In this document: one piece after another, positions 7,447 through 9,671 of the stretch
Position numbering within the stretch: the stretch's first letter is position 1
Layout of the letters: every line of letters begins with the position of its first letter
NCBI RefSeq assembly: GCF_003667705.1
Contig: NZ_CP033019.1
Location: forward strand, 496,001-560,000
Length of the DNA stretch: 64,000 nt
Direction: 5' to 3'
From: Janthinobacterium agaricidamnosum
GTDB lineage: Bacteria > Pseudomonadota > Gammaproteobacteria > Burkholderiales > Burkholderiaceae_D
Translations under genes and position numbers: made by a program
Notes under the pieces: model-generated
The model's database searches: none
What the model was told of the DNA's origin: nothing
The model's input: only the letters and a program-made list of their open reading frames with translations

Positions 7447-8346
7447 TTACACGTAGGCCGCCAGGGCGCCCTTCATTTTCTTCAGCGCCGCCACTTCGAT
7501 CTGGCGGATGCGCTCGGCCGATACGCCGAACTCTTCCGCCAGCGCGTGCAAGGTGGCACCGGAGCCGTCGTCGTTGGCCAGCCAGCGCGCTTCGATGATG
7601 CGGCGCGAACGGGCGTCCAGCTTCGACAATGCCGTTTCCAGGCCTTCCGATTGCAGGCGCGTCACTTGTTCCGCTTCCAGCACCTTGGTCGGCTCGCTTT
7701 GCTCCGACGACAGATAGGCGATCGGCGAAAACTTGTCGTCTTCATCGTCGGTCGGCGACTCCAGCGCGATGTCGCGGCCGCTCAAGCGCGTTTCCATTTC
7801 GATCACTTCTTCGCGCTTCACGTCGAGCAGCTTGGCCAGCGCATCGATCTGCTTCGGCGTCATCGCATCGAGGCCCGTCTTGTGGCTGCGCAGATTGAAG
7901 AACAGCTTGCGCTGTGCCTTCGTCGTCGCGACCTTGACCAGGCGCCAGTTTTTCAGGATGTACTCATGCATCTCGGCTTTCACCCAGTGCATGGCGTACG
8001 ACACCAGGCGCACGCCCTGGTCCGGATCGAAACGTTTCACGGCTTTCATCAAGCCGATATTGCCTTCCTGAATCAGGTCGGCGTGCGGCAAGCCATAGCC
8101 CAGATAGCCGCGGGCAATCGAGACCACCAGGCGCAGGTGCGACAGCACCAGCTCTTGCGCGGCGGCCAGGTCATTTTTTTCGCGCAGGCGTTTCGCCAGC
8201 GAAATTTCTTCGTCGTGGGTCAACATGGGCAGACGGTTCACGGCCGAGATATAGGCGTCGATATTGCCCAGATTGCCAGTGAACCCGAGGCCCAGCGCAT
8301 TACTTTTGGTCGGAACCAATGCGGATGTTGCGGACATCATAGTCAT
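7447..8346 (-). CDS. rpoH: RNA polymerase sigma-32 factor RpoH
   Basis: 299 residues. Region 2 (LIQEGNIGLMKAVKRFDP, residues 91-108), the RpoH box QRKLFFNLR (145-153), which separates sigma-32 from sigma-70 and sigma-S, and a region 4.2 helix-turn-helix (ALAEEFGVSAERIRQIE) are all present. It directs RNA polymerase to heat-shock promoters. ATG 8346 has the ribosome site GAGGGAG at good spacing; the ORF upstream of it is leader. The gene order ftsY-ftsE-ftsX-rpoH is the same as in E. coli. A leader of about 150 nt separates it from a promoter covered by a CIRCE element, so HrcA control is likely. Confidence 0.97.
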   Translation of the reverse strand: MTMMSATSALVPTKSNALGLGFTGNLGNIDAYISAVNRLPMLTHDEEISLAKRLREKNDLAAAQELVLSHLRLVVSIARGYLGYGLPHADLIQEGNIGLMKAVKRFDPDQGVRLVSYAMHWVKAEMHEYILKNWRLVKVATTKAQRKLFFNLRSHKTGLDAMTPKQIDALAKLLDVKREEVIEMETRLSGRDIALESPTDDEDDKFSPIAYLSSEQSEPTKVLEAEQVTRLQSEGLETALSKLDARSRRIIEARWLANDDGSGATLHALAEEFGVSAERIRQIEVAALKKMKGALAAYV

Positions 8347-8501
8347 GTTTTCTCCCTCGTAGTCTTGCTTTGTTCCAGTTGGCCACATCACACGATGTGG
8401 CCCGATTGTCTGTTCTGTTTTGCGTATTCGGTCTTGCACTTTGCAGATCGCGGCACCATCTTCATCTGGCGTCCATGGCGGTTCTGCTGTTGGTATGTCC
8501 C

Positions 8502-8532
8502 TATATTAGCACTCTCTGCCTGAGAGTGCCAA
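8502..8532 (-). promoter_or_regulatory. CIRCE element (HrcA operator) overlapping the rpoH promoter
   Basis: Plus-strand TTAGCACTC (8506-8514), nine bases, then GAGTGCCAA (8524-8532): one mismatch from the CIRCE consensus TTAGCACTC-N9-GAGTGCTAA. On the minus strand the element contains a -35-like TTGGCA (8527-8532) and abuts a -10 TAATAT (8502-8507) 18 bp away, so bound HrcA would block RNA polymerase directly. This would make sigma-32 synthesis answer to GroEL-dependent HrcA. Confidence 0.88.
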
Positions 8533-8713
8533 TCAGCACATTTAATCGTCCTGATAGCCTAAATACTATGGTGATTTAATGCTTGATATATATCTCTGAA
8601 CAGCGCGAGATAGCGCTTTACGACAACATGGCCAGTCTACGGCCTCTGGCTGAAGCGAGCCTTAAGAATACTTGCTAAATATCAAGATAACAGCAGATGG
8701 GGATGGCGAGGCG

Positions 8714-8740
8714 CATGGCGGCACCGCAGGTGCCGCCATG
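8714..8740 (-). terminator. Strong hairpin after ftsX
   Basis: A perfect 12-bp inverted repeat, CATGGCGGCACC, with a GCA loop, begins 10 bp beyond the ftsX stop. There is no U-run, so it may act as a 3' end stabiliser or a weak terminator. Confidence 0.5.
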
Positions 8741-8750
8741 GAAAGGAAGG

Positions 8751-9671
8751 TCAGTTCAGGCGCGCCAGGTGGCGCTGTACGCAGAGGAAGGCGCCGATCA
8801 GGCCGAGGCCGGCGCTGACGGCCAGCAAGCCTGCCATCGGCAGCGGCGCCAGCGGCACCAGCTGGAATTCGGACGCATACAGGCGTGCAAACTCGGCAAT
8901 CGCGGTATTGAGCGGCTGCAAGGCCAGCGCCACGGCGCCCAGCGCCAGCGCACCGGCGCACAGGCCCAGCAGGGCGCCCGTGTAATAGAAGGGGCGGTGG
9001 ATGAAAGTGTCGGTGGCGCCGATCAGTTTCGAGATGCTGATTTCATCGCGCTGCTGCATCACTTGCAGGCGGATGGTATTGAAGACCACGGCGATGACGG
9101 CCACGCCCAGGGTGATGGCCAGCAGCAGCAGCACCAGGCGCAGCACGCCCAGCAGGGCCGCCAGACGCTTGACCCAGGCCGAATCGACTTGCGCCGATTC
9201 CACGCCGGGCAGGTGGCGCAACTGTTCCGCCACGGCATCGACGTCCTGCGCTTCGCTGGCGCTGCTGAAGGCGTCGAGTTTCAGCACATAGCTGTCGGGC
9301 AGGGGATTGTCGCCCAGGGTGCTCAGTACGTCGGCCAGGCCGTTCTTGTTCTTCAGCGTATCGAGCGCCTGTTCGCGCGGGATGAAGACGATCTTTGCCT
9401 TTTGCTCGCCGACGATCTTGCGCATGGCGCTGGCCAGGGCCACGGCTTGCTCGCGCGGCGTGTCGATCTTCAGGAAGACGCTGATTTCCGGGTCGACCGA
9501 CATCTGTTCCGACATGGGGCGCACATTGTCGAGCATGGTCAAGCCGGCGAACGGCAGCGACAGGGCGATGGCGACGACGAGCACGTTCAGTAAAAAGCCG
9601 CCTGGCGACTTGCGCAAATGAATCAGCGCCGAGCCGAGCGCGAAGCGGTGTTGACGGAACCAGCCTCTCAT
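8751..9671 (-). CDS. ftsX: Cell division protein FtsX
   Basis: 306 residues. The membrane partner of FtsE: one membrane helix near residues 28-48, a periplasmic domain to about residue 165, then three more helices (about 172-195, 225-250, 275-297), the standard FtsX topology. FtsEX couples ATP hydrolysis at the Z ring to activation of periplasmic amidase regulators. The start overlaps the ftsE stop by 4 bp. The gene is followed by a strong hairpin and then rpoH. Confidence 0.96.
   Translation of the reverse strand: MRGWFRQHRFALGSALIHLRKSPGGFLLNVLVVAIALSLPFAGLTMLDNVRPMSEQMSVDPEISVFLKIDTPREQAVALASAMRKIVGEQKAKIVFIPREQALDTLKNKNGLADVLSTLGDNPLPDSYVLKLDAFSSASEAQDVDAVAEQLRHLPGVESAQVDSAWVKRLAALLGVLRLVLLLLAITLGVAVIAVVFNTIRLQVMQQRDEISISKLIGATDTFIHRPFYYTGALLGLCAGALALGAVALALQPLNTAIAEFARLYASEFQLVPLAPLPMAGLLAVSAGLGLIGAFLCVQRHLARLN

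Follow-up and report, generated by a model that had tools for sequence, protein, structure and literature searches.

The question raised by this locus is whether rpoH, the gene for the heat-shock sigma factor sigma32, is itself placed under HrcA, the repressor that acts at CIRCE operators. Heat-shock control by repressor (HrcA/CIRCE) and by sigma factor (sigma32) is usually presented as two parallel circuits, and a sequence-only reading of the 64,000-nucleotide stretch analysed here (the window) had proposed that an HrcA site lies within the rpoH promoter and links the two circuits. As far as sequence can tell, that reading is supported by the overlap of the operator with the -35 and -10 elements, by its conservation and by its tracking of hrcA. 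We put the probability at about 0.85 that an HrcA operator is superimposed on the rpoH core promoter, such that a shortage of GroEL would derepress groESL and rpoH together. The relevant features are the following.

8506 to 8532, minus strand: CIRCE operator (predicted HrcA site), TTGGCACTC-TCAGGCAGA-GAGTGCTAA on the rpoH strand; one mismatch, conserved before rpoH in relatives.
8527 to 8532 (read 8532 to 8527), minus strand: -35 hexamer TTGGCA, formed by CIRCE positions 1-6, with G in place of A at position 3 bringing it nearer to TTGACA.
8503 to 8511, minus strand: extended -10, made up of TG at 8511-8510 and TAATAT at 8508-8503, sharing CIRCE positions 22-27.
8521 to 8525, minus strand: TCTCA, CIRCE positions 8-12, the site of a sigmaE-type -10 in many relatives; the matching -35 is absent here.
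8347 to 8496, minus strand: predicted rpoH mRNA leader, which ends at the ATG and whose start is placed about 7 nt past the -10; ribosome site GAGGGAG.
7447 to 8346, minus strand: rpoH, heat-shock sigma factor sigma32, 299 aa; TIGR02392 (rpoH_proteo) at 408 bits with a cut-off of 323.1, the profile having been run on 7447-8349.
8751 to 9671, minus strand: ftsX, the upstream neighbour, on the same strand as rpoH; TIGR00439 over its cut-off.

On the plus strand, positions 8506-8532 read TTAGCACTC-TCTGCCTGA-GAGTGCCAA, with one mismatch to the consensus TTAGCACTC-N9-GAGTGCTAA; the rpoH strand, carried on to the end of the -10, reads TTGGCACTC-TCAGGCAGA-GAGTGCTAA-TAT. The CIRCE one base off its consensus and, on the rpoH strand, the TTGGCA -35-like hexamer 18 bp from a TAATAT -10 were both found as the sequence-only reading had described them. 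No other sequence in the 64-kb window comes within 3 mismatches of the CIRCE consensus (dinucleotide shuffles give 0.01 on average), and the whole 6.36-Mb genome holds two matches this close, one before rpoH and one before groES, with none for a reversed-pattern control. The sigma70-type promoter TTGGCA-18 bp-TAATAT, with a TG one base before the -10, is directed into rpoH. It is the sole sigma70-type match in 8340-8760, where 0.7 would be expected by chance, so the promoter call rests on conservation. The predicted operator spans the predicted promoter from -35 to -10, a position able to block the start of transcription.

Sigma70 regions 1.2, 2 and 4 were recognised in RpoH, and its start codon is best placed at the ATG at 8346, about 150 nt past the predicted transcription start. 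The gene order is ftsY-ftsE-ftsX-CIRCE-rpoH (the ftsE match falls just below its curated cut-off), and ftsX lies upstream of rpoH in E. coli too. The possibility that the CIRCE serves another gene was rejected, the nearest recognised gene besides rpoH being ftsX, which is upstream and on the same strand. A sigma32 promoter before rpoH in this genome was also rejected; the best match has 5 mismatches, and shuffles mostly reach 4. The rpoH leader contains a perfect 9-bp hairpin, GGCCACATC-GTGT-GATGTGGCC, at 8381-8402, which was not seen in the leader of L336, the closest named relative.

The repressor gene on which the proposed link depends, and whose absence would by the sequence-only reading have refuted it, is present. 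The genome has a single copy of hrcA, recognised by its C-terminal domain (5e-63) and its winged-helix DNA-binding domain (2e-5). Upstream of hrcA itself neither a CIRCE (up to 3 mismatches) nor a clear sigma32 site was found; a sigma32 promoter there was rejected, the best match having 5 mismatches. The second genomic CIRCE is perfect and stands before groES (Cpn10 domain), which is followed by a GroEL-like frame recognised by eye; in this genome it adjoins a sigma32-type promoter, CTTGAAT-N14-CCCTAT.

A motif scan upstream of rpoH in related genomes, which the sequence-only reading had proposed as a check, found the CIRCE conserved through the order and the class. The order was represented by 250 genomes, of which 224 contain a CIRCE at up to 3 mismatches, 220 an HrcA match and 243 an RpoH match. 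By hand tally, 215 genomes have hrcA and CIRCE, 5 hrcA only, 9 CIRCE only and 21 neither, where, as in the samples of the class and of the phylum outside it, the hrcA-less status of a genome not named in the HrcA lists means absence among the matches listed. The DNA upstream of rpoH was read in 119 of the 243 RpoH genomes: the 30 closest, 29 with an absent or uncertain hrcA or CIRCE, and 60 for family coverage, 7 of which (G093, G234, G204, G171, G207, G134 and G205) were chosen after a CIRCE was already known there. Of these 119, 92 have hrcA (91 readable, G161 being left out since a contig end truncates its rpoH) and 27 do not. A CIRCE precedes rpoH in 86 of the 91 at up to 3 mismatches and in 89 at up to 4. 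At up to 3 mismatches it precedes rpoH in 3 of the 27 hrcA-less genomes, all three being assemblies 84-86% complete. At up to 4 mismatches it was found before rpoH in 41 of the 42 families having an hrcA-bearing member among the genomes read. Some hrcA-less genomes, for example G034, G194 and G172, keep a decayed CIRCE with promoter-like ends.

A few genomes of the order have unusual sets of CIRCE-like sites (up to 3 mismatches). Three from one family (f41: G127, G165 and G199) have two each and no HrcA match; in G165 and G199 these lie elsewhere than before rpoH, and in G127 RpoH was not found (E <= 1e-60). G146 has six, compared with exactly two CIRCEs in about 170 of the 250 genomes (counted by eye).

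The class, here GTDB Gammaproteobacteria, which includes the beta group, was sampled with 151 genomes, one per family. CIRCE at up to 2 mismatches was found in 115 of them, RpoH in 139 and HrcA in 108. A script read 134 of the 139; G000 had been read with the order genomes, G049 was judged from coordinates, and G308, G378 and G282, which have partial RpoH matches, lie outside the reading. At up to 3 mismatches, 90 of 97 hrcA-bearing genomes have a CIRCE before rpoH, versus 9 of 37 hrcA-less genomes, counts that omit G000 and G049 (Fisher p ~8e-15, ignoring relatedness). Among the seven hrcA-bearing genomes without a match, G361 has the arms with an 8-base spacer and G286 the right arm only. 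Four of the nine hrcA-less genomes that keep the site are assemblies 62-85% complete, and five (G383, G343, G376, G265 and G324, the last with 3 mismatches) are 97-99% complete.

Outside the class, 29 of 83 sampled genomes of the phylum, the 83 being probably mostly alphaproteobacteria, were read (22 with hrcA), and none of the rpoH copies read has a CIRCE with up to 3 mismatches before it. A wider presence across the phylum was therefore rejected, and the linkage is a class feature within our sample, apart from a prediction in print for Geobacter. One locus outside the class (L439, from G399) has a CIRCE-like sequence, with 4 mismatches and lacking the TAANAT completion, 83 nt ahead of rpoH.

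A CIRCE with up to 3 mismatches also precedes rpoH in 41 of 80 named loci, including Janthinobacterium, Rugamonas, Pandoraea, Trinickia, Diaphorobacter, Curvibacter, Acidovorax, Nitrosomonas, Polynucleobacter, Dyella, Methylocaldum and Pseudoalteromonas. The loci without it include those of Serratia, Dickeya, Kluyvera, Lelliottia, Photobacterium, Haemophilus, Shewanella, Aeromonas and Idiomarina, and HrcA was not found in these nine genera (one genome each searched). Fifty of the 80 named genomes were searched for HrcA, and the rpoH CIRCE is present in 23 of 30 with hrcA and 2 of 20 without, the two (L376 and L379) being metagenome assemblies. Of the seven hrcA-bearing genomes without a match, L362 (Xanthomonas) and L369 carry altered versions, L398, L400 and L403 belong outside the class, and the remaining two are L374 and L392.

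Several of the named loci carry variant sites. L363 (Luteimonas), L367 (a Lysobacteraceae genome) and L313 (G485) have an rpoH CIRCE with C-to-G at position 7, which in L367 and L313 is mirrored, TTAGCAGTC-N9-GACTGCTAA; in Xanthomonas L362 and the metagenome-assembled L369 the CIRCE is more changed than in these three. The position-7 variants may mark a co-varied HrcA specificity. Pseudoalteromonas L384 has a perfect rpoH CIRCE, yet just a divergent HrcA match (E 1e-11).

The joint history of repressor and operator was followed on a tree (FastTree, midpoint-rooted) of 153 RpoH sequences that were selected and not sampled at random, with CIRCE scored at up to 4 mismatches. Both are present in 83 cases and absent in 59, with hrcA only in 5 and CIRCE only in 6. 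The tree has 21 maximal hrcA-less clades; CIRCE is absent throughout 15, and in the other 6 the CIRCE-bearing members come from metagenome or incomplete assemblies. Within one genus (g284), G481 has neither hrcA nor CIRCE and G485 has hrcA and a CIRCE variant with 2 mismatches. Thus the CIRCE is conserved with rpoH and tracks the presence of hrcA, with exceptions in both directions. For the direction of evolution we infer from the sequences that a CIRCE before rpoH was probably ancestral in the beta and gamma class; where hrcA was lost the CIRCE usually decayed, and some such lineages, E. coli among them, probably retain the sigmaE promoter (P3). The contrast with E. coli drawn in the sequence-only reading holds as to the lack of a CIRCE there, the best match in the K-12 ftsX-rpoH gap having 8 mismatches, and needs correction in that the arrangement occurs widely, with the state of E. 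coli apparently a derived one. The distribution suggests that E. coli and its kin lost the operator together with HrcA.

Operator and promoter were compared base by base across 191 rpoH CIRCE sites, 92 from the order and 99 from the class, of which 12 are from genomes in which hrcA was not found. The comparison set was 30 groES sites, those of 59 CIRCE loci examined that have groES behind a CIRCE with up to 2 mismatches. Positions 5-9 and 22-23 are identical in at least 190 of the 191 sites, although the sites were picked by mismatch count, so that arm conservation is partly built in. T at position 30, which completes the -10, is present at 179 of the 191 rpoH sites versus 3% of the groES sites. 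A at position 29 (155 of 191) is equally common at groES sites (80%), so T30 is the telling base. The exact TAANAT occurs at 127 rpoH sites. At the other end, G at position 3, giving TTG or CTG, occurs at 69 sites and its mirror change, C at position 25, at 4 (binomial p 2e-16). In the 30 groES sites a CCCTATNA-like sigma32-type -10 immediately precedes the CIRCE. The bases that complete the -10 and -35 thus point to an operator fused with the core promoter at rpoH, whereas at groES the operator sits at the start.

A further correction to the sequence-only reading is that in many relatives a second promoter is interlaced with the operator or adjoins it. The form GGAACTT-N16-TCNNA is that of a sigmaE-type promoter, and GGAACTT about 15-16 bases before the CIRCE (up to 2 mismatches, five-base window) was found at 125 of the 191 sites versus 11-18 at four control offsets. 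Sites with this -35 tend to have A at position 12 (112 of 123 versus 19 of 65, p 2.5e-18), and no such tendency was found for T at position 10 (p 0.4). A free search around the operator for GGAACTT-N15-17-TCNNA gave 103 of 188 sites at up to 1 mismatch versus 0.5 expected from shuffles, with a spacing of 16 in 80 of the 103; motif and offset had first been noticed in a base-composition table of these sites, so that, the named loci of the free search excepted, these tests reuse the data that suggested them. The promoter has shifted as a unit in some groups, its -35 lying at -11 in family f49, Diaphorobacter, Curvibacter and Acidovorax and at about -27 to -32 in families f4, f19 and f31, Pandoraea and Trinickia, and it is still overlapped or abutted by the CIRCE. 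In the window's own family, none of 8 genomes has a sigmaE-type promoter at up to 1 mismatch, and the 405-nt gap upstream of the window's rpoH contains no GGAACTT-N15-17-TCTNA, the best match having 3 mismatches, the same as shuffles.

Ten of 11 Enterobacterales loci have GGAACTT-N16-TCNNA (up to 1 mismatch) in the 350 nt before rpoH. Not every hrcA-less clade has such a promoter; f41 and f44 are examples that gave no good sigmaE-type match. The E. coli K-12 ftsX-rpoH gap contains TGAACTT-N16-TCTGA, which we take to be P3, the sigmaE-dependent promoter. The sigmaE-type promoter interlaced with the CIRCE in relatives has the same spacing, so P3 looks like the same promoter after loss of the CIRCE. 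We rate at somewhat better than even the chance that the ancestral beta and gamma rpoH promoter was a three-way integrator within about 45 bp, in which a sigma70-type and a sigmaE-type promoter were interlaced under one HrcA operator and cytoplasmic GroEL capacity gated the supply of sigma32 from housekeeping and from envelope stress alike. P3, the textbook connection of sigmaE to heat shock, would then be the remnant left after loss of hrcA and the operator, and in some families the sigmaE promoter would have been rebuilt at other registers (-35 at -11 or about -27 to -32), yet kept where the CIRCE covers its -10 or start.

HrcA binding, exclusion of polymerase and GroEL sensing at this locus we infer from HrcA biology elsewhere; GroEL sensing by HrcA is known in other systems. 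With ample free GroEL, HrcA would be active and on the CIRCE, and RNA polymerase would be kept off the sigma70-type promoter. Once misfolded protein tied up GroEL, HrcA activity would be lost and groESL and rpoH released at once; the released rpoH would give more sigma32, driving groESL and other heat-shock genes, and restored GroEL would re-arm HrcA. The whole would form a coherent feed-forward loop closed by GroEL feedback. Because the same operator also covers the sigmaE-type promoter in many relatives, HrcA there could set the limit to which envelope stress raises sigma32.

It is possible, though we think it unlikely, that HrcA binds here and does no more than fine-tune, with sigma32 set mainly by translation and protein stability and rpoH mRNA little changed. 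HrcA-less lineages still have rpoH, E. coli-type control of sigma32 acts after transcription, and post-transcriptional control could make transcriptional derepression a minor input. However, the full operator has long been conserved at rpoH and is usually lost along with hrcA, which argues that this control contributes to fitness. No support was found for a leader RNA element as the principal control, or for a stable structure masking the start as in the E. coli thermosensor: the rpoH leader has no Rfam match, and unaligned folds of 11 rpoH leaders (that of the window taken from an upstream in-frame ATG) gave no consistent structure, with z-scores of -2.3 to +2.5 against base shuffles. According to the parts of the report consulted, in nitrogen-starved Xylella hrcA was up four-fold after 2 h, and rpoH two-fold after 8 and 12 h (PMC3224663), a timing that does not favour simple HrcA repression of rpoH there.

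We consider it very improbable that the palindrome acts in mRNA or as a DNA structure and not as an HrcA operator. The CIRCE is an inverted repeat, and at groES, just downstream of the -10, it would be transcribed, but at rpoH it lies on and between the -35 and -10, upstream of the predicted start. Moreover, its base identity is kept beyond what symmetry demands (positions 5-9 and 22-23, partly through site choice), and its presence follows hrcA. Chance, or a relic with no present role, can be given almost no weight: the motif is short and has one mismatch, but it has two matches genome-wide and is conserved across order and class, and only 2 of 4940 base-shuffled rpoH upstream regions from the order and class genomes contain a CIRCE with up to 3 mismatches.

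If HrcA does act on the rpoH core promoter, the sigma factor would be subordinate to a repressor in much of a large bacterial class, with E. coli as a derived, simplified case. Loss of HrcA or an altered GroEL supply would then shift the whole sigma32 regulon, beyond groESL, in many beta- and gammaproteobacteria, and where a sigmaE-type promoter is interlaced, envelope stress would raise sigma32 much more with HrcA off.

In the parts of the literature consulted, PMC545781 predicts a CIRCE before rpoH in one genome of its Table 8, Geobacter sulfurreducens, and cites Permina and Gelfand 2003 on the beta, gamma and epsilon groups, a survey that may already hold the beta and gamma linkage. PMC3135505 gives, in the portion seen, one HrcA each for Laribacter and Chromobacterium and none for two Neisseria. 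The consulted sections of PMC11764788, PMC4167512 and PMC10490939 do not mention a linkage of rpoH with CIRCE, and no report of a composite sigma70/sigmaE/HrcA promoter was found in the open full-text literature as far as it was seen, a scope that most subscription papers lie outside.

Compared with known systems, Geobacter sulfurreducens likewise is predicted to have a CIRCE before rpoH in a genome with hrcA, and lies outside the class; the promoter anatomy is not given in the part of the source seen (PMC545781). A few other delta-type loci (Anaeromyxobacter, Syntrophaceae and Desulfonauticus) have no CIRCE before rpoH. The E. coli K-12 ftsX-rpoH gap has P3 and no CIRCE, whereas the window genome has the CIRCE but no sigmaE-type promoter. 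With the HrcA/CIRCE regulon (groESL, hrcA-grpE-dnaKJ) the system shares the operator consensus and the repressor family, and groESL is the second target here. It differs in that the predicted target is a sigma factor gene, with the operator fused with a sigma70-type -35 and -10.
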